A stretch of DNA of 64,000 nt, from contig JAJECO010000003.1 in assembly GCA_022822005.1 (NCBI GenBank), forward strand, positions 62,001 through 126,000, read 5' to 3'. Below the pieces are notes generated by a model. The model saw nothing but the letters and a program-made list of their open reading frames with translations. It was not told where the DNA came from and did not search any database. The stretch comes from Candidatus Poribacteria bacterium. Its GTDB lineage: Bacteria; Poribacteria; WGA-4E; PCPOR2b. Made by a program: the position numbers and the translations under genes. Shown in pieces: positions 3,844 through 50,707 of this stretch (positions within the stretch are counted from its first letter, which is position 1; each line of letters starts with the position of its first letter).

Positions 3844-5285
3844 CGCAACCCAGCTAGATCTGCGTAGACTTTTCGCCCTTCATTGAACAGGTGTAGGACT
3901 TCCTCCCGCTGTGTGTCCTTTGTGAACCGCCAATCCCGGTTCACTATCTCCATTGCATTGTCAATCGAGCGGACAAAGAACGTCGCGGACTCCTGTGCTA
4001 TGCTGTCCGGCCGACCTGTGCCGATGTAGATAGGGCTGGTGTGGGCGTAGACCGGTTGTGCAAAGCTATCACGTGCCTCGCCGAAAGCGCGAGCGGCGAC
4101 CCACCCATCGGATTCGATTTGGAGGTCAAATCCCCATTCCCCGTCCTGTTTCTTCCCGTCCAGCGGCACAGTTTGCGTGACTGCCCCGTTCTGAACCAAC
4201 TCGACACGGGTGAGCGGATAGTGCGAACCCCACCTAATTTGCCCTGACACGGTGCGAGGCTGACCATTCGGCGATTCGATAGTGCTGCCGGGCGCTTGAC
4301 CGTCGAGGTTCAGGAACAGCGCCGGTCCGTTTGTGATAAAGGTACGTCCCGCCTGCAACCCTTTCAACCAACTTTCATAGGTAAAATCGCCATCGGTTTG
4401 GACATAGACGCGGTTGTTCGCGCAGATGAACCAATCTGTCCCGGTCGACGCGGGCAGCGGAATACCGCAGTTGAGCAGGTGATACCAGATGTCGTATTCG
4501 AGGTCTTTCCATGCAGGATCGAACAGGTTGAAGGCATCCAACTTCCCCAACGCTGCTGCCACCGGTGCTTCCATTCCCCGTCCATTATGGCACCACAGCA
4601 CAACGCCTCCCTGCCGTTTGGCATCATCGCAGGCGTAACAGATGGGCGGGTAGTCGGGATCGAAGTCGCTGACCAGCTTGCCGCGACTGACAGGCTCGAC
4701 CAGATTCTCAATGTGGAGAAACATGACGTGCCCGGACCCACCGCCGTAAGAGGAGTTATGGCGGTTCTCCTCGCCGCAATCGACAAGATGGTGGGCGGTC
4801 GAGTAGTCGGTCATGAATCCGAGCGGATACTTATTGCTGGCGTACGGGATTTCGCCCCGCTGCAGGAGGCTGATAACGGTTACGCTGAGATCGTGGACCT
4901 TGGGATCGAGATGCAATCGCGCATCGGGCTGCGCCTCATCCTCATTGTAGTGCAGATGGGTATTTCCCGGATACCACCCCTGCGAGGGAAGGTCTGCCCA
5001 CCGTTTGAGATGCAGCTCGACCTCGACCGCCCCTTTCGCAGGCATCGAGACAACCTTGCGAAGGGGTTCGTACTCCGTGCCACGCTCAACCACGATGTCT
5101 GTTGAGCCACGGGGCACGTCCACCGTGAACTCGCCCGGACAATAGAAAAACGGGTCGCCCGGTCCGATCTTCAGGATACTGTCTGCGGGATGGACAAAGC
5201 GCCCACTACTGGTCAGCACGTGGACCTTCGCCTCAACGGACGCACCGGAAACACTGTCTCGAATGATCCCTTTGAGGGTTGCCAT
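3840..5285 (-). CDS. CehA/McbA-family metallohydrolase (PHP-like)
   Basis: 481 residues. An N-terminal beta-domain (about 1-95) precedes a PHP-like metallohydrolase domain starting GWYPGNTHLH, with metal ligands H110 and H112. Further candidate ligands are in TAHHLVDCGEE, VLWCHNGRG and TGTDWF. CehA/McbA proteins are known as carbamate/ester hydrolases, but most members are uncharacterised. The start at 5285 follows AGGAG with good spacing. The frame stays open 16 codons further upstream, into a palindromic repeat, which I regard as leader. It lies between two sulfatases, so a role in processing the same substrate is plausible but unproven. Convergent stop overlap with the left sulfatase. Confidence 0.75.
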   Translation of the reverse strand: MATLKGIIRDSVSGASVEAKVHVLTSSGRFVHPADSILKIGPGDPFFYCPGEFTVDVPRGSTDIVVERGTEYEPLRKVVSMPAKGAVEVELHLKRWADLPSQGWYPGNTHLHYNEDEAQPDARLHLDPKVHDLSVTVISLLQRGEIPYASNKYPLGFMTDYSTAHHLVDCGEENRHNSSYGGGSGHVMFLHIENLVEPVSRGKLVSDFDPDYPPICYACDDAKRQGGVVLWCHNGRGMEAPVAAALGKLDAFNLFDPAWKDLEYDIWYHLLNCGIPLPASTGTDWFICANNRVYVQTDGDFTYESWLKGLQAGRTFITNGPALFLNLDGQAPGSTIESPNGQPRTVSGQIRWGSHYPLTRVELVQNGAVTQTVPLDGKKQDGEWGFDLQIESDGWVAARAFGEARDSFAQPVYAHTSPIYIGTGRPDSIAQESATFFVRSIDNAMEIVNRDWRFTKDTQREEVLHLFNEGRKVYADLAGLR

Positions 5286-28435: not shown

Positions 28436-30817
28436 CTACTTTAGAATCGCCATTTTGCGCGTGGAGACATAATCGCCGGCTTTCAGGACATAGAAATAGA
28501 CACCGCTGGCGGCGCGCTCCCCCAGTTGGGTGCGTCCATCCCAGTAAGCGGCTTTATCCTTGCTGATGTACCGCCCGCGCGCTTTCATACCGAGACGCAA
28601 TGTTCGTACCACCTGTCCTGATACATTGTAGATTTCAACTGAAACGGATGCGTCGTTCCCTAATTCGTAGGGGATCCAAACGTCTGGATTGAAAGGATTT
28701 GGGTAACTTTGGAGCAGCTGCGTCTGCGCCGGGGCAGCGGGGGTATTCGCAGGGTTAAAGATGGGGGTAATCCCATTTGGGTCAATGCTCGGTGTACCCA
28801 TAATTCCAATTGCATCAACGGGCACAACCGCGTAATAGTAGCGGGTCTCCGCCGGATCGAAACGGCTGTTATCTACCTCGATATCTTGAAATATTGTGGT
28901 GTCCACAAAGTGCGTATCCGTCGCATCGACCCGCCCGACAATATTGATATCATCGTCGGGGATGCCGTCGTCATTCCGATCTGCGGCGTTCAGCACTTCC
29001 GCGGCGGTCTGGAACGGCTGCGGGTCATCGGTTTCGATTAACGATGTATACCGCTTGCGAACGATAACCACTTCACGGATATCCGTCAAATCTTCAAGTT
29101 CCCACTGCACACGCACACCTCTGTCGCCTTCTTGGGAGACTGTGGGCGCCGAAAGAGAGCCGACGGGCGGACGATCTGCCATATAACTGACTGCACCGCC
29201 GAAATAGCCCCCACCGGGGATAACAACCTGCTCGACATCCGGACGTAGATTTATCAGGATGAGTGTGATCTTCTTGATATCGCTCCCGAAATCGTTAAAG
29301 GTGATCTGCCCCTCTTGCGAACGTTGGTAGGTGAACGCCTCCCGGATCTCGTGCGTCCCGTCCTGTTTTTCAACGATAAACTTTGCCCCCCAACCGCGCA
29401 CACCAAAAACATCGAGTCGATCCAATTCGTTCTGAATTTCCGCTCGATCTGTCACGTATAGCGCGCTCATGTCGATTGGAGCGATGTCGGCACCATCAAC
29501 CTTGACGGCGAATTCGTTCATTACAACGCCGGGAGGCGGTTCAAAGACGATATAGCGTGCCGAGAACGGCTCCGGCATCGCCTCTGAATCAAAGTCAACG
29601 CGGATAGGATAGCCGTCATGTATATCGCTCGGGTGGATGGCAACCGGCGGAAAGCGGTGTCCATTGAGGTAGTGCTTCCCATCATCCCGGTCATGCGTAA
29701 AGTAGTTCCACTCGGTAAAGGTCTTAAACGCCTCGACCAAGGTTGTACCGTGGTTGGTAAAGACATCTAAAAAATTGCCGAATTCGCGGTAAGAACCATC
29801 CGTCGAATCCCCAAAAAACTGACGGACAATATCGACATCGAATCGTTCCGCCATATAAAATACCCAGATCACCGCTGCATATTCGCGCAACCCGACCCGA
29901 CTGTCGAGCGCGAGGTCAGGCTGATCCAAAAAGATACCAAGCTGTCTGGGGTAATAGTCGTAGGCATCGGTCTCACCAATCTCGTCGGGATCCGGGATAT
30001 CATCGCGATCATCAATCAGTCCCCCATCGTATACTTTTGACTCAATCCATGTCGCTGACGCTTCCATGAACCAACCCGGCATCCGTGCGTTGTACGCGAA
30101 CTGAATCCCGTGCAGAAATTCATGTGCGGTGGTTGTTTCTATGAAACGGTTGCCCTCTAACTTGCCAAAATAGTCATAGAGGCGGGAATTTATCGCAAAA
30201 TAGGGACCGAAGGTCACGACGGTCGGTCGTATTCGCCCATGATACCAATTGGTCGTTGTAAAGCCGAGCGCCGGAAACTGAAACAGGTACACATCATATT
30301 TATGATTGCCGCCGTTGTACGCGTCCCAAAAATCGTCATAAGGCTTTTTGAACCCCATCAGATTGACCTCGACATGGAACGATTTCTCGTGTGCTTCGGC
30401 ACAAAGATCGACGTAGTCCGGCACACCGTTCAACGGATTGACATCTTCGAGCGGTGGTGCATGTGGACCGACGGTGGTGTAGTGGAGCCGAAAATGGGGC
30501 GTATCAAACTTGTTTGGGAGATGGACGGAACCGTAAGGGCTGCCGGGTTGTCCGGGCCGCAGGAAAATCCCTTGAAACTCGCGCTGATAGATCGCTGGCA
30601 GGCGGTCCCAGTTCTGGGCGAGGATGTTGAAAGTGTCCGTAAAACATTCCTCAATCTCGCTGGGGGCATAACTCGATTTGGGATTGATATATTTTCGGGC
30701 GGATCGGATGGCGCTATACAACGCCGGATCAGGTGGACGTGCGTCAAGAAAGACGGGCGTGGCAGTGAGAATGCCGAAGGCCAATGACAGGGCTAGGATA
30801 AATTTCAGGTAGTTCAC
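28436..30817 (-). CDS. Secreted zinc metalloprotease with C-terminal type-IX-like sorting domain
   Basis: 793 residues. Signal peptide at 1-20. Zinc site H232-E-F-L-H236 (HExxH) with third ligand candidate E253 in WFMEASATW. This matches MXAN_6640-like putative metalloproteases. C-terminal sorting domain at about 700-793: QSYPNPFNPDVWIPYEL, then VSVEIYNVSGQVVRTL and YWDGRTQLGERAASGVYFY, ending MAILK. Such tails direct outer-membrane translocation in T9SS-like systems; here the exporter is not in the window. GTG start at 30817 with GAGGAATG upstream. Shares the C-domain with 31310-33658. Confidence 0.85.
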   Translation of the reverse strand: MNYLKFILALSLAFGILTATPVFLDARPPDPALYSAIRSARKYINPKSSYAPSEIEECFTDTFNILAQNWDRLPAIYQREFQGIFLRPGQPGSPYGSVHLPNKFDTPHFRLHYTTVGPHAPPLEDVNPLNGVPDYVDLCAEAHEKSFHVEVNLMGFKKPYDDFWDAYNGGNHKYDVYLFQFPALGFTTTNWYHGRIRPTVVTFGPYFAINSRLYDYFGKLEGNRFIETTTAHEFLHGIQFAYNARMPGWFMEASATWIESKVYDGGLIDDRDDIPDPDEIGETDAYDYYPRQLGIFLDQPDLALDSRVGLREYAAVIWVFYMAERFDVDIVRQFFGDSTDGSYREFGNFLDVFTNHGTTLVEAFKTFTEWNYFTHDRDDGKHYLNGHRFPPVAIHPSDIHDGYPIRVDFDSEAMPEPFSARYIVFEPPPGVVMNEFAVKVDGADIAPIDMSALYVTDRAEIQNELDRLDVFGVRGWGAKFIVEKQDGTHEIREAFTYQRSQEGQITFNDFGSDIKKITLILINLRPDVEQVVIPGGGYFGGAVSYMADRPPVGSLSAPTVSQEGDRGVRVQWELEDLTDIREVVIVRKRYTSLIETDDPQPFQTAAEVLNAADRNDDGIPDDDINIVGRVDATDTHFVDTTIFQDIEVDNSRFDPAETRYYYAVVPVDAIGIMGTPSIDPNGITPIFNPANTPAAPAQTQLLQSYPNPFNPDVWIPYELGNDASVSVEIYNVSGQVVRTLRLGMKARGRYISKDKAAYWDGRTQLGERAASGVYFYVLKAGDYVSTRKMAILK

Positions 30818-31309: not shown

Positions 31310-33658
31310 ATGCAAACCCGACGTTTAATCAAGGTTGCTGTTGCCGTGATCGTTGTGGGAATGGTTGCCGGACTAAAACCGGTATGGGGAGTGAACAACT
31401 GGCTCCAGCTCGATGACGGGCTGGTTATGGGACAGGTTTACGCGCTTGCAGCGCACGAATCTCGACTATACGCCGGCAGCGAGAACGGTGTATTTGTTTC
31501 TGAAGACAGAGGAGAAAGTTGGTTGCCAACTTCGTTCAATAATTCAGTTAGTACACTGACGGTCGATGGAGCCACCGTTTACGCAGGAACCTGGTCCCAA
31601 GGCGTGTTCCGATCCGATGATACCGGGGTGACCTGGAAACCGATTCGGGACGGATTACGCCTTCACGAACATGCGGGAGAACGCTATTATGGCAATGTTC
31701 GTCACATTCTTGCCACTGACAACAATATTATCAATGTGATGTACCATAATGGCACCTATACATCCACCGACCGTGGAGAGACATGGCACGACATTTCAAC
31801 GGAGTGGATGGGGGGCAACAGCATCCACTTGATGACGGAGTTTGACGGCTATCTTTGGAGTGCAGTATCAAACGGTTCTATGTTTCGTTCACCTGACAAC
31901 GGCAAGACATGGGAAAAGCTCCACCGTTTTGCTCATGGTCATGTATACGCCTGGGCGGCACTCAACGGACGACTGTATGTTGGCGGTTACAGGGGGGTTG
32001 GCGTATGGAATGAAACTACGCGGACTTGGGAATATCCCATGACTGGACTTCCAATTGGTAACCTTCACGACCCAGACGCGCTGCCGTACGTCTTCACGCT
32101 TGCCGTTCACGGTGGTCGGCTGTTCGCTGGGTTGCACAACACACACGGCGTTTATGTCTTTGATTTACAATCAGGAACTTGGTCCTCCGTTGGTTTGGAA
32201 GGACGGTCCGTTCTTTCTCTCCTCTCGCACGGATCGGCGCTCTATGCAGTTACGGAGGAGGATGGCATCTATTACTTAGTCCAAGTCAGGACAGTTTCCC
32301 CTCAAGAGGGCAGCGTTGAGGGTGGCGAACCGATCACGATTTTTGGCAGAGATTTTCCGTATAGGACAACTGTTACGATTGGCGGGAAACCAGTGACAGA
32401 CCTTCGGGTGACCAATACACTGATAACAGGGCTCACACCGCCGGGAGTCCTCGGCGAAGCAGATATTGAGGTTCATTTTCCAGATAGCGGCACTTTCCCC
32501 CTTGAAAGGTGGAAATTTTTTTACACAAACGTCCCGTCAATAACGTTGAAAATGGCTCCAACTCATGGTCCTCAGATGGGCGGTGGAACTGGTATTATAA
32601 CTGGCAGCGCTTTCGCCCCTGATGCGACAGTAAAAGTCGGGAATAATCCGGCGTCGGGTGTTGTCGTCACGCCAACGCTGATTCATTTCACAATTCCGTC
32701 CGGCACGATCGGAACGGCAGATGTTACCGTAACTAACCCAGATGGAAGGAAGTGGATTTTGGAGAATGGGTACACTTACGATTCATTTTCTCCCCCTGTC
32801 ATTCGTGAGGTTTACCCGAACAAGGGACCTATCGACGGCGGCACAGAAGTAGTCATCAGAGGGAATTACTTTCTCGAAGGGGTCACAGTTATAATCGGTG
32901 GGATTCAAATAGAGCATTTGGATAGCCTCTCGCCGATCGAAATTCGCTTAAAGACGCCGCCATCACCCCCCGGCCGCACAGAAATTCGTGTGGTCAATCC
33001 CGATGGTCAACAAGTTGTGCAAGAACACGGATTTACCTACAATGCGCCTCTCGATATTACCAGTGTTACCCCCAATGTGGGACCCATGGAAGGCGGAACG
33101 CTGGTGACTATCACTGGAACAGGATTTCACCCCATCGCCCGGAGTACTCAGGTTACAATTGATGGGATACCTGCATCAACCATTATCGACATGTCATTAA
33201 CAAGAGTGATAATCAAGACACCCGCGGCAAAGACCCCCGGTACGAAGGATGTTGCCTTAAGGAACCCCAACGGAGAGGAAGTTACGCTTATAGGCGGGTT
33301 TACCTATAACACTTCATTGGCAGTCGAGTCGAAAGGGAAGTTGTTGACCTCCTTCGGTTACGTGAAACAGACCCGTTTACTGCAAAATTATCCCAACCCG
33401 TTCAACCCAGAAACTTGGATACCGTACCAACTGGCAACGGAAGCGGATGTTACCATCGTTATTTACGATAGCGGAGGACAACGGGTACGGACGCTTAAGT
33501 TAGGGTCTCAACCACCGGGACTATACCTTACTCAAGAGAAAGCAGCGTATTGGGAGGGACGGGATGATACCGGGGAATGGGTGTCCAGTGGTACATACTT
33601 CTACTACCTGCAAGCGGGGAATTACTCGGCAACAAAGAAAATGATTATACTAAAGTAG
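31310..33658 (+). CDS. Secreted multi-domain protein: beta-propeller, IPT/TIG repeats, type-IX-like sorting domain
   Basis: 782 residues. Signal peptide at 1-27. N-terminal BNR/YCF48-like propeller at about 28-320 (ENGVFVSEDRGESW, RSDDTGVTWKP, TSTDRGETWHD, RSPDNGKTWEKL repeats). Four IPT/TIG Ig-like domains follow at about 325-670 (GPIDGGTEVVIRG, GPMEGGTLVTITG). The C-terminal sorting domain is at about 690-782, with QNYPNPFNPETWIPYQL and WEGRDDTGEWVSSGTYFYYL. Likely exported to the surface or medium; binding or adhesion is inferred. Ribosome site GGAGG precedes the ATG. Paralogue tail at 28436-30817. Confidence 0.85.
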   Translation: MQTRRLIKVAVAVIVVGMVAGLKPVWGVNNWLQLDDGLVMGQVYALAAHESRLYAGSENGVFVSEDRGESWLPTSFNNSVSTLTVDGATVYAGTWSQGVFRSDDTGVTWKPIRDGLRLHEHAGERYYGNVRHILATDNNIINVMYHNGTYTSTDRGETWHDISTEWMGGNSIHLMTEFDGYLWSAVSNGSMFRSPDNGKTWEKLHRFAHGHVYAWAALNGRLYVGGYRGVGVWNETTRTWEYPMTGLPIGNLHDPDALPYVFTLAVHGGRLFAGLHNTHGVYVFDLQSGTWSSVGLEGRSVLSLLSHGSALYAVTEEDGIYYLVQVRTVSPQEGSVEGGEPITIFGRDFPYRTTVTIGGKPVTDLRVTNTLITGLTPPGVLGEADIEVHFPDSGTFPLERWKFFYTNVPSITLKMAPTHGPQMGGGTGIITGSAFAPDATVKVGNNPASGVVVTPTLIHFTIPSGTIGTADVTVTNPDGRKWILENGYTYDSFSPPVIREVYPNKGPIDGGTEVVIRGNYFLEGVTVIIGGIQIEHLDSLSPIEIRLKTPPSPPGRTEIRVVNPDGQQVVQEHGFTYNAPLDITSVTPNVGPMEGGTLVTITGTGFHPIARSTQVTIDGIPASTIIDMSLTRVIIKTPAAKTPGTKDVALRNPNGEEVTLIGGFTYNTSLAVESKGKLLTSFGYVKQTRLLQNYPNPFNPETWIPYQLATEADVTIVIYDSGGQRVRTLKLGSQPPGLYLTQEKAAYWEGRDDTGEWVSSGTYFYYLQAGNYSATKKMIILK

Positions 33659-33758: not shown

Positions 33759-34496
33759 TTAGGGAGTGAATGTCTCAAGAATAGGAGGCGGTTGGCTATT
33801 TTGCAAAAGAGCCAGCGCGGCTGAGATGATTTTATGCTGTAGGACAGGGTTGTTCGGCTCGCCAAGCGGGTAGCCGAAACGGTACGGCACAGCGAGTGCA
33901 CGGGGCGGTTTGACCTGCTCGGTAATTTCCCGAACCAGCGTGATCGAAACGGTTGAGATGCCGACTTCCTCGATCGCACGTTGGATCAGCCCAACGGACT
34001 GATTGCATAGCGGTCAAACGGGTGTCAGAAATACGACATCGACGCCATCTGCCTTGAGGTGCGCCCCAACCTCTGGGGCGGTGCGTTTGATTAAACGTCC
34101 CGGAGCGGACTGCGATCCCATAAAGCTGAAATGCCGGTCGTTGAGCTCCCCGATTTTGTCCGCCCCTTCTAACTCACGAAAGCGATCAAGCGGAAACGCC
34201 AGATTCCGATCCGCAAAGCTGCCGGTCTGATCGTATACAGTGCTGCTGTGTGCAGTCGTCAACGCTTGCACATCAACGGTGTTAGGGATTTCACGATAGG
34301 AGTAATCGCCGCTCATGAAGTGATCATCAAACGGCTCTTGAGACGGTGTATGTAAACCGGCGGTGGTGACCAAGGCAACTCGGCATTCCGTTAGGGGTCG
34401 CTGCAGCGGGGTATGCGGCGTTGTATCGTAACGTCGATAGCGATAGAGTTTCATGAAGATGCGAAGTTTGAAGTCAAGTTCATCAAAGGAGGGCAC
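33759..34496 (-). CDS. GrdB-like selenoprotein (glycine/sarcosine/betaine reductase selenoprotein B family) with in-frame UGA = Sec161
   Basis: The minus strand reads FLTPV, then TGA at 34014-34016, then PLCNQSVGLIQRAIEEVGI and on to TAA at 33759-33761 with no other stop for 84 codons. The family is recognised from VALVTTAGLH, PLDRFREL, HFSFMGS and APEVGAHLKADGVDVVFLTPV. In relatives this strand is followed by a redox motif, Sec or Cys, then P-x-C and a Q-S-V-G-L-type helix, as here (U161-P-L-C164). Conventional calling truncates the gene at 34014. GTG start at 34496 follows AGAAGGA at good spacing; a TTG at 34547 (17 codons longer) has no ribosome site, and 34454 (ATG) is a shorter alternative. 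It is divergent from the Ldh-family gene. No other Grd subunit, selA, selB or selD lies in the window. Physiological reaction unknown; other GrdB/PrdB proteins are reductive. Confidence 0.8.
33985..34003 (-). promoter_or_regulatory. Candidate bacterial SECIS hairpin downstream of the UGA
   Basis: Ten nucleotides after the UGA the mRNA reads AUCAGUCC-GUU-GGGCUGAU: an 8-bp stem (one G-U pair) with a 3-nt loop whose first base is G. The loop begins 18 nt after the UGA, in the usual spacing range for bacterial SECIS elements, which need a G in the first loop positions. Folding by eye only. Confidence 0.55.
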
Positions 34497-34646
34497 GCTG
34501 GGGTCCTTCTCTGCATTGTCTAAGTCATACGCAGATAAATATTTCAACTATATTCTTCATGTCAATTATAGCATAAATTGAGATGATGTCAAATGAGCTC
34601 TTTCTTATCTGAACACGAACTATTTCCGAAACCGAGGTATTCGATA

Positions 34647-35705
34647 ATGGCAGATTCAAAACGAATTGAGCATCATGAACTGATTCAATTCTTCAAAGAG
34701 GCACTGATGGCTGTTGGTACGCCGGCACATGTAGCAGAGGTAGAGGCGGAGATTGGCGCGGAGGTTGATCTTTGCGGCGTACATTCGCACGGCGTGAGAT
34801 TGCTGCCGGTGATGGTCGAAAACATCCGTACTGGACTGACGAACCCAGATCCGAAAGTGGAGGTTCTTTCGGAGCAACCGGCTTCGGTGCTCGCGGAGAC
34901 AGACCGAGGCATCGGGCGTTATGTTTCCGCTGTGGGGATGGATATGGCAATCGAACGCGCCAAGAGTTACGGGATCGGTGCAGCCACCATCCGGGGCGTG
35001 GCACACTGGGGGCGCGGATATAGCTACGCAGCACGGGCGGCGCGAGCCGGTATGATCGGTCTAGCGTACACAAACGCTATCATTAACTTCCCGGCGTGGG
35101 GAACCTCCGCGCCCTCTCTGGGCAACAACCCGATGGCTATCGGCATTCCCGTGGGTGCAGGGGAAGAACCGGTCGTGTTAGACATCGCCATGACGCAGAT
35201 TGCGATCGGCCGGGTCCGTGAAGCCGCCGAAACGGGACAGCGTGTTCCTATTGGATGGGGGTTAGATGCAGCGGGCAAACCCACAACGGATCCGGAAGCA
35301 ATCGTCGAGTCTCAACGCTTTCTGCCGATGGGTGAATACAAGGGATCCGGTTTGGCGTTCATGATCGAGCTGCTGACGGCGGGCTTGGCGGGCGGAATGC
35401 TCTGCTATGAGTTAGGAACCGAGGGGCGCCCAACGGACACCTCCGGAGGTTCATCAAAACTTTTCATCGCTATACGACCTCACGGGGATTGGTTAAACGA
35501 AAGGACCGCGTCGCTCAAATCCTACCTAAAGTCCGCACCGCCGGCAGAAGAACAGGGCGAAGCACAGTGGCCCGGCGAGGGCAGTTATCGCCACCGCACC
35601 GAGTATCTCGCAGAAGGAATTCCAATCCCCCTCAAGTTAGCAGAGGAGATGGAGGAACTCGCACAAGAGTTATCTGTGGCGTTAAATTGGATGGATTGTC
35701 GCTGA
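34647..35705 (+). CDS. Ldh-family (malate/L-lactate-type) NAD(P)-dependent dehydrogenase
   Basis: 352 residues from ATG 34647. The family signature is VHSHGVRLLPVMVENI, then GRYVSAVGMDMAIERAKSYGIG, the substrate region ARAARAGMIGLAYTNA and DIAMTQIAIGRVREAAETGQ, and TTDPEAIVESQRFLPMGEYKGSGLAFMIELL. Oxidises a 2-hydroxy acid or lactone-type compound with NAD(P). A start at 34593 is possible but has no family similarity. Divergent from the selenoprotein gene with about 150 bp between their starts. Confidence 0.85.
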   Translation: MADSKRIEHHELIQFFKEALMAVGTPAHVAEVEAEIGAEVDLCGVHSHGVRLLPVMVENIRTGLTNPDPKVEVLSEQPASVLAETDRGIGRYVSAVGMDMAIERAKSYGIGAATIRGVAHWGRGYSYAARAARAGMIGLAYTNAIINFPAWGTSAPSLGNNPMAIGIPVGAGEEPVVLDIAMTQIAIGRVREAAETGQRVPIGWGLDAAGKPTTDPEAIVESQRFLPMGEYKGSGLAFMIELLTAGLAGGMLCYELGTEGRPTDTSGGSSKLFIAIRPHGDWLNERTASLKSYLKSAPPAEEQGEAQWPGEGSYRHRTEYLAEGIPIPLKLAEEMEELAQELSVALNWMDCR

Positions 35706-47899: not shown

Positions 47900-48766
47900 A
47901 TGATTCTCAATCAGATTCGTGACATCTTAGGACAACCTTTTTATTATACGGACAACTGTCTTATCTACAATATGGACTGTTTGCAGGCATTGAAAAGACT
48001 GCCGGCAGAGATCGTATGGTTGACAGTGACCAGTCCACCCTATAATATCGGTAAATCGTATGAAAACCCAATGATACTAGACAAATACCTAGATTGGTGT
48101 GAGGCATGGGTTGCGGAGATTTACCGAATCACACGCCCTAACGGGGCTTTCTGGCTTAATCTCGGATACTTTTCAATACCAGGGCGCGCGAAGGCAATAC
48201 CTATTCCTTATTTATTGTGGGACAGGATACCTTTTCATTTGATTCAAGAAATCATCTGGAACTACGGTGCCGGGGTTGCTGGAAAAAAATTCTTCTCGCC
48301 GAGAAATGAGAAATTCCTGTGGTATGTAAAAAATCCAGATGATTATACTTTCAATCTTGATGCAATTCGAGATCCAAATGTCAAATATCCTAATCAGAAG
48401 AAAAATGGAAAACTAAAAGTAAATCCAAATGGAAAAAATCCTACAGACGTCTGGCAATTCTCGAAGGTAACATCTGGTAAGAACCGAGCTTCTAAAGAAC
48501 GGACATCTCATCCGGCTCAATTCCCTATGGCTGTCATAGAACGTATCATCAAAGCCTCATCTAATTCAAGAGAAATAGTTTTAGATCCCTTTATCGGATC
48601 TGGGACCACTGCTGAAGTTGCTCTCAGATTAGGTCGTGCCACAGTTGGTTTTGAAATCAGAGAGGATTATTGTCGTATCGTTGCAGACCGGCTTGATAAC
48701 TTCTTACAGCACCAAACAGACCAAGAAGCACAGTTAGAATTGTTTGGGACAAGTAAAGCGGTTTAG
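47900..48766 (+). CDS. DNA methyltransferase (beta class), R-M modification enzyme
   Basis: 288 residues. Motif IV is TSPPYN (44-49), characteristic of N4-cytosine/N6-adenine enzymes; motif I DPFIGSGTT is at 229-237, late in the protein, so the order is beta-class. The TSPPY form favours N4-cytosine, which suits ScaI-type modification of AGTACT. GGAGAG precedes the ATG; a GTG four codons earlier is possible. Visibly AT-rich compared with flanking genes. Convergent with the restriction endonuclease gene, the two overlapping by 4 nt at the stops. Confidence 0.85.
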   Translation: MILNQIRDILGQPFYYTDNCLIYNMDCLQALKRLPAEIVWLTVTSPPYNIGKSYENPMILDKYLDWCEAWVAEIYRITRPNGAFWLNLGYFSIPGRAKAIPIPYLLWDRIPFHLIQEIIWNYGAGVAGKKFFSPRNEKFLWYVKNPDDYTFNLDAIRDPNVKYPNQKKNGKLKVNPNGKNPTDVWQFSKVTSGKNRASKERTSHPAQFPMAVIERIIKASSNSREIVLDPFIGSGTTAEVALRLGRATVGFEIREDYCRIVADRLDNFLQHQTDQEAQLELFGTSKAV

Positions 48767-49521
48767 TCTAATGTTATTTCAAGACTTTTAGCCTCTTCTC
48801 TGAACCTTTGAATAAGCTGGTTGTTTCCTCCATAAGCCAATAGATCACGAATGGTTTTGATTCCTTCGGAGGCAAATATCTCGATTCGCTTCCCACCCAC
48901 TCCGCTTAACAAACCGATAGGCCCATTCAGTCTATAATCTCCTCGAATTTCCACCAACTTGTATTTGTAAACTTCGTCTCTTAAGGTAGCAGCTTGGCCG
49001 GTTGCCGCCCTTTGAGGCTGCCAATCTTCGTAGTCTATCCAGCCAAACCGCAGCAGGGTCAATGCTGTTTGATAGAAATTGACTGTGATATAGTAACCTG
49101 ATTTTTCAACCTTTGATGTTGATGAATCACGTTTTATTCTTTGTGCATAACTGCGGTTGCCGTATATTTTTGTGCTCAGTTGGCCGGAGGATTTCATTTC
49201 TGTTGAGAAAAATGGATTCGCTAAACAGACTAGATCTTTCTCATCGCCGCTTCGTCCACCACGCCACTGGTCCGGATAGCGGATTCCTAGTTCTCTGGCA
49301 TATAGCTTTTCAAAAAAATATCCAACCACCATCGCAGGTGTATCCATCTCATCAAGACGTATTGCAGACTTTCCGGTGCCGATTCTTGTCTGCCATAAAA
49401 TCTGCCACGTTTGAAGAGCTATATCCCTTAACTCATCCAAATTTAACGGGTATTGTTCGATTAATTCCAGAGTTTTTGGTTTCCAGTTGACCATATCAAG
49501 GTTGTCATAAGGCGACAGCAT
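48763..49521 (-). CDS. Type II restriction endonuclease, ScaI-like
   Basis: 252 residues. Candidate PD-(D/E)xK site: D96 (GDEKDLVCL) and E108-M-K110 (STEMKSSGQ). STEMKSSGQLSTKIYGNRS is what I recall of the ScaI family (AGTACT). The C-terminus (GVGGKRIEIFASEGIKTIRD) has a helix-hairpin-helix look. Family assignment is from memory. The ATG follows directly on the controller gene stop with AAAGGGA upstream, so the two are translationally linked. Confidence 0.75.
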   Translation of the reverse strand: MLSPYDNLDMVNWKPKTLELIEQYPLNLDELRDIALQTWQILWQTRIGTGKSAIRLDEMDTPAMVVGYFFEKLYARELGIRYPDQWRGGRSGDEKDLVCLANPFFSTEMKSSGQLSTKIYGNRSYAQRIKRDSSTSKVEKSGYYITVNFYQTALTLLRFGWIDYEDWQPQRAATGQAATLRDEVYKYKLVEIRGDYRLNGPIGLLSGVGGKRIEIFASEGIKTIRDLLAYGGNNQLIQRFREEAKSLEITLD

Positions 49522-49746
49522 TCAGTCAATCCCTTTCATAAGTTTACTCACAGATACATTTAACGCATTTGCAAGCCGCATAATATTGACCAAGGAGACA
49601 TTCCTTTCTCCACGCTCAATACCGCTAATATAGGTACGATGCATTTCAGCTAGTTCAGCCAACTTTTCTTGAGAAATCCCCGCTTGATTTCGTAATGACT
49701 GAACCCTGTCACCAAATTTTTTGAGAAGGATATAGTTGGTTGCCAT
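49522..49746 (-). CDS. XRE-family controller-type HTH protein of the R-M system
   Basis: 74 residues, essentially a single helix-turn-helix: AGISQEKLAELAEMHRTYIS and GIERGERNVSLVNIMRLANAL. Controller (C) proteins of type II systems have this size and lie upstream of the endonuclease gene, delaying its expression until methylation is established. No ribosome site precedes the ATG, consistent with leaderless C-gene transcripts known in several systems. AT-rich like the other two genes. Confidence 0.8.
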   Translation of the reverse strand: MATNYILLKKFGDRVQSLRNQAGISQEKLAELAEMHRTYISGIERGERNVSLVNIMRLANALNVSVSKLMKGID

Positions 49747-49801
49747 GATGGTTTTTGCCTGGCTGTTTAAGATGGTTAAGTTTTTTGAACTTCTCGCTGG
49801 C

Positions 49802-50707
49802 TCATTTTTTGAACTCTATATTCAATTCCCTTGCTGCTTTCTGCGCCATCTTTGACCCCGGCTGCAGTGCGAGGACCTTCTCATAATCAGCGTGGGCATC
49901 GTCGTAGCGACCGAGCCGTTGATATGCGGACGCTCTACGGAAGTAGATGGGACCCAAAGTTGGGTGCCCCTCTCCCCAGCCCTGAATCTCATCGGTTGAA
50001 AGCTGAACGACCTTCTGATAGTCAGAATCGGCTGCGTCCGATTGATTTAATCGGAGATAGATCTCACCCCGTCGGAGATATGCCTCCGCAAAAGCGGGTT
50101 CAATCTCGATTGATTTGCTGAGATCTGCAAGCGCAAGTTGGTCTTCCACCAGCTGCGTGTAGGCAAGCCCGCGATAATAGTAGGCGGCAGCACCGGGTTT
50201 GTGCTCAATGACCGCTCCGTAGTCCTCAAGTGCGCGTTGCGTGTCTCCCATCTCCAGATAGGTTTCTGCCCGCTTCCATGTTACAAATCCCGCCCATCGT
50301 TTTTCTAACGATGCGGTGTAATCTGCGAGCGCACGCTGATAATCGCCCAAAGCACGATGGGCATCCCCGCGACTGTAGTAGGCATCAGCTGCGTATCGAT
50401 TCAGGCTCAGTGTCTGCGTATAATCGTCGATCGCTTTTCGGTATTCACCCAGACGATAGTGCGCAAGTCCACGTTTAACGAAGGCTTCTGCATATTCTGG
50501 ACTGATCTCAATCGCACGGGTAAAGGCGGACACCGCGCTACGGTTATCACGGTCTGTTTGGGCTCCGAGGAGTTCTGTCCCTTTGACGACGAACTCGCGC
50601 GCTTGGGGATCTTCCCCTTTCAGGCTATCCCAACTCACGAATCGGGAGGCGATGAGGACACAGGCAATAAGCACCGGCACCATGACGTAAACCAATAAAC
50701 GCGACAT
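49802..50707 (-). CDS. TPR-repeat protein, membrane anchored
   Basis: 301 residues from 50707 (AAAGGAT upstream). One N-terminal membrane helix (LLVYVMVPVLIACVLIASRF), then about six tetratricopeptide repeats from residue 40 to 290 (AEAFVKRGLAHYRLGEYRKA, ADAYYSRGDAHRALGDYQRA and others). TPR domains mediate protein-protein contacts; the partner is not known. Downstream of the phosphoesterase gene, 31 bp apart on the same strand. An upstream extension is unsupported. Confidence 0.82.
   Translation of the reverse strand: MSRLLVYVMVPVLIACVLIASRFVSWDSLKGEDPQAREFVVKGTELLGAQTDRDNRSAVSAFTRAIEISPEYAEAFVKRGLAHYRLGEYRKAIDDYTQTLSLNRYAADAYYSRGDAHRALGDYQRALADYTASLEKRWAGFVTWKRAETYLEMGDTQRALEDYGAVIEHKPGAAAYYYRGLAYTQLVEDQLALADLSKSIEIEPAFAEAYLRRGEIYLRLNQSDAADSDYQKVVQLSTDEIQGWGEGHPTLGPIYFRRASAYQRLGRYDDAHADYEKVLALQPGSKMAQKAARELNIEFKK

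Follow-up and report, generated by a model that had tools for sequence, protein, structure and literature searches.

A poribacterial gene predicted to encode a PrdB-like selenoprotein across an in-frame UGA codon

Glycine, sarcosine and betaine reductases contain a selenoprotein B (GrdB, GrdF or GrdH) that carries a UxxC motif in its C-terminal half; GrdB is about 435 residues long and works together with GrdE and GrdA. PrdB, the subunit of D-proline reductase that is partnered by PrdA, is a protein of about 240 residues (TIGR04483, PF07355) with a UxxC motif of the form UGTC and a second motif, APxHIGFMGGGG. The abundance of PrdB-type UxxC selenoproteins in the sea has been on record since 2005: with 42 genes they ranked third among the families by abundance in the Sargasso Sea (PMC1088965), and the GOS metagenome data contained 235 Sec forms of the PrdB family (PMC2398784). 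The poribacterial gene described here adds to these PF07355 UxxC selenoproteins of marine samples; the likeness is one of description. The marine family comes from metagenomic reads, was named after PrdB and is given no tie to Poribacteria in the passages of the two reports that describe it. A text search of the literature for Poribacteria together with selenocysteine returned just two papers containing both words, each with a single mention of selenocysteine.

The gene lies on the minus strand of the window, by which we mean the whole 64,000-nucleotide stretch of DNA that was analyzed (Table 1). Translation of the window places the TGA at 34016-34014 within one open frame, which reads FLTPV before and PLCNQSVGLIQRAIEEVGI after this codon and continues for 84 codons to a TAA at 33761-33759; the predicted readthrough product across the UGA is FLTPV-U-PLCNQSVGLIQR. 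The first-pass annotation, which had proposed a selenoprotein at this position, described this arrangement exactly, and its estimate that gene callers would lose one third of the protein agrees with the 85 of 245 residues affected (Sec counted). Its outer limit at 34547, on the other hand, falls on a TTG codon that is probably not the start. In the alignment the ATG of relatives coincides with the GTG at 34496 of the window, a stop codon is found just upstream of the aligned start in two of them (TGA in one, TAA in the other), and the putative promoter at 34592-34565 would leave a start at 34547 with a leader of nearly nil, for which reasons we place the start, with good probability, at the GTG. 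The UGA is then codon 161, as compared to approximately 161 in the order's other family and 151 in clostridial PrdB.

Table 1. Features of the PrdB-like locus, in window coordinates.
Feature	Coordinates	Strand	Description
PrdB-like selenoprotein CDS (predicted)	33759..34496	-	GTG start, TAA stop, 245 aa, Sec161; PF07355 and TIGR04483 matches; conserved on both sides of the UGA
Predicted Sec codon, in-frame UGA of the U-P-L-C (UxxC) motif	34014..34016	-	TGA in 45/45 loci read; Sec/Cys in relatives
Cys codon of UxxC, putatively resolving	34005..34007	-	C162 of alignment A1, invariant
Bacterial SECIS-like hairpin	33985..34003	-	8 bp, loop GUU at 33995-33993, 18 nt from UGA to loop
Candidate promoter, sigma-70-like TTGACA-16-TATAAT	34565..34592	-	12/12, consensus match only
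Ldh_2 family NAD(P)-dependent dehydrogenase, divergent neighbor	34647..35705	+	Position same across the genus

A stop codon in the middle of a gene could in principle be a recent nonsense mutation or a base-call error followed by a decaying remainder, all the more since gene callers would end the gene at this UGA and broken genes are numerous in metagenome-assembled genomes. A scan of public genomes yielded 14 poribacterial loci and one actinobacterial locus, the latter encoding a homolog of 46% identity in which the UGA is kept. Across the poribacterial and actinobacterial loci in which the codon was read, some of them representing the same genome reached twice, TGA stands at exactly this column in 45 of 45 cases. 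When 85 genomes of the phylum were searched, 69 proved to contain the gene, and every match that spans the UGA column has an in-frame TGA; in two genomes the match lacks a TGA and consists of short pieces that do not extend to that column. The UGA is thus shared by independent assemblies, by several genera and by an actinobacterium, and the frame that follows it is conserved at the protein level in all poribacterial homologs, much as the frame before it. In pairwise codon comparisons within the genus, silent changes prevail on both sides of the UGA; between the window and one other locus (L012), 30 silent and 9 amino-acid changes were counted after the UGA, and 39 and 23, respectively, before it, a pattern indicating that the post-UGA region is under purifying selection. 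As silent changes outnumber amino-acid changes after the UGA as they do before it, and the UGA itself is conserved, we consider a pseudogene or sequencing error to be ruled out for practical purposes.

Which residue is inserted does not follow from an open frame alone, and the UGA might be translated as another amino acid or passed by general readthrough, without selenium. The first-pass annotation had suggested aligning the readthrough product with homologs, and in a joint alignment the UGA coincides with the annotated Sec of PrdB from Peptoclostridium acidaminophilum and Terrisporobacter glycolicus (UGTC), while three other relatives carry Cys at this column, namely the proteins of Roseomonas (CPVC) and Haematobacter (CPIC) and a homolog encoded on a Paraclostridium plasmid (CGTC). 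The last of these, at positions 4001-4669 of locus L076 on Paraclostridium bifermentans plasmid CP124691, has no gene listed for it in the record.

The mRNA downstream of the UGA can form a hairpin beginning 10 nt past the codon, which, folded alone, has an energy of -9.8 kcal/mol (z -5.2 versus shuffles). Published limits for bacterial SECIS elements are a loop of 3-9 nt with an early G in most cases followed by G or U, a stem of 4-16 bp, a spacing of 16-37 nt and an energy of at most -7.5 (PMC13188914); with its GUU loop, 8 bp, 18 nt and -9.8 kcal/mol, the hairpin lies within all of them. RNAalifold, applied to 28 distinct sequences, found the 8-bp hairpin as the sole structure. In the alignment, 98.7% of the hairpin cells are paired, with one pair broken in each of three sequences, and in two pairs both positions vary: one changes between G-C, G-U and A-U and joins a silent site of Gln with the first base of Leu, the other between U-A and C-G. 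Shuffled sequences reached this degree of pairing in 3 of 500 cases, and sliding abolished it. A longer, two-stem SECIS was considered and rejected, as the lower stem beyond the 8 bp is not conserved between genera.

The genome also contains the selenocysteine machinery that the first-pass annotation had proposed looking for, with selA, selB, selC and selD all present. A tRNA-Sec (76.2 bits; anticodon TCA, in agreement with ARAGORN) is encoded in the same assembly on contig C78, where it adjoins selB (369 bits) and selA (602 bits), and selD (L041, C66:75130-76050) itself carries an in-frame TGA in a C-G-U motif and is a selenoprotein gene in its own right. In another genome of this genus, which consists of a single contig, tRNA-Sec and selA are located about 2 kb apart on the chromosome, which argues against the cluster being a binning artefact. 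Nearly all genomes of the phylum contain tRNA-Sec, so a comparison with the presence of the gene is uninformative. In the window, TGA terminates 12 of 39 large ORFs; the code is therefore otherwise standard, with no general recoding of this codon. The Sec/Cys column in relatives, the SECIS-like hairpin, the complete Sec machinery and the use of TGA as a normal stop elsewhere all speak against an insertion independent of selenium, which we regard as very unlikely. Screening the window for further UGA readthroughs returned adjacent in-frame genes and no second supportable selenoprotein candidate. One such case, at 48763-49815 (-), consists of an ORF for an HTH-type regulator and a 252-aa ORF in one frame, separated by a TGA directly followed by ATG; by eye, the two resemble adjacent genes for a controller protein and for a type II restriction endonuclease, and not a selenoprotein.

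Taken together, the conservation of the UGA, the Sec or Cys at its column in relatives, the hairpin with its compensatory changes and the Sec machinery bear out the earlier proposal that the UGA encodes Sec in a U-P-L-C motif, and we are highly confident in predicting a PrdB-like selenoprotein of 245 residues in which the UGA at 34016-34014 is read as selenocysteine. In such a mechanism, SelB would bind the hairpin just downstream of the UGA and bring tRNA-Sec, the ribosome would insert Sec at the UGA, and Sec together with the Cys three residues on (U-P-L-C) would form a selenol/thiol redox center.

We next consider the position of the protein within its superfamily. It matches PF07355 (GRDB superfamily) with 46.3 bits, above the gathering cut-off of 22. 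The first-pass annotation had labeled it GrdB-like, which is right as to homology, since the C-terminal half of GrdB with its UxxC is homologous; the GrdB model, however, scores 52 bits against a cut-off of 602 and matches with its second half only, and by both score and length the closest family is PrdB. TIGR04483 is the top NCBIfam model, the length is similar, UxxC with Sec occupies the aligned column and identity over the conserved part reaches 34-37%, all of which would suit a genuine PrdB acting with PrdA. In contrast, the score of 152 bits falls short of the equivalog cut-off of 300, while two annotated PrdBs score 310 and 424, and the poribacterial protein reads UPLC and LNDRHFSFMG where PrdB has its own two motifs. 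Furthermore, the loci read contain no prd genes as neighbors and no prd operon. PF09338, which detects PrdA and also covers GrdE-type pyruvoyl subunits, matched in 0 of 85 genomes of the phylum, some of which may miss genes as incomplete MAGs can, and recovered PrdA from a Terrisporobacter plasmid as the one positive control. We therefore consider it improbable that the protein is PrdB itself and class it as a PrdB-like selenoprotein, not as a proline or glycine reductase. The alphaproteobacterial 'selenoprotein B family' proteins of Roseomonas and Haematobacter resemble it in their aligned CPxC and in having no prd or grd neighbors, and differ in carrying Cys for Sec and a C-terminal extension of their own of about 50 residues.

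A gene that ordinary callers would shorten by a third is thereby corrected, and a sponge-associated phylum is shown to carry a PrdB-type marine selenoprotein in complete genomes. We advise against transferring the name 'proline reductase PrdB' to it, as the search did not detect the partner that this reaction requires; with the family of this obligate subunit missing from the search results, a reductase function is not readable from the name, and the reaction catalyzed by a selenoprotein of a kind common in the sea cannot be taken from PrdB.

Since the genomes searched yielded no pyruvoyl subunit of the PrdA/GrdE type, D-proline or glycine reduction is most likely not performed. The protein could act alone, or with a partner of another type, as a selenol-dependent oxidoreductase, and its neighbors give a hint, though only a hint, of sugar or sugar-acid metabolism. 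The top model for the Ldh_2 neighbor is 3-dehydro-L-gulonate 2-dehydrogenase, with a score under the cut-off. The PrdB-like gene of the order's other family lies between two Gfo/Idh/MocA dehydrogenase genes in one direction at nearly all loci (L013-L022, L049-L072), separated from the upstream one by no more than a few tens of bases in the loci read; this cluster differs from the Ldh_2 neighbor in the genus of the window. A role in sugar or sugar-acid catabolism might conceivably follow from these dehydrogenases, and we put forward tentatively that the protein, reducing neither D-proline nor glycine, is a selenol-dependent oxidoreductase possibly serving such catabolism. Equally tentative is the wider suggestion that the poribacterial PrdB-like selenoproteins, and by extension many marine 'proline reductase' entries, may constitute a separate enzyme without pyruvoyl subunit, an oxidoreductase that depends on its selenol and is linked to NAD(P)-dependent dehydrogenases of sugars or sugar acids. 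A search of PDB sequences with the protein gave chance matches only, and an AlphaFold model (pLDDT 80.5, 15 sequences) had no significant match in the PDB, for which reason we draw no function from the fold. Elsewhere in the vicinity, two large proteins encoded at 31310-33658 (+) and 28436-30817 (-) of the window both end in a YPNPFNP..WIPY-type tail resembling a C-terminal sorting domain, the former with matches to FlgD_ig and Por_Secre_tail.
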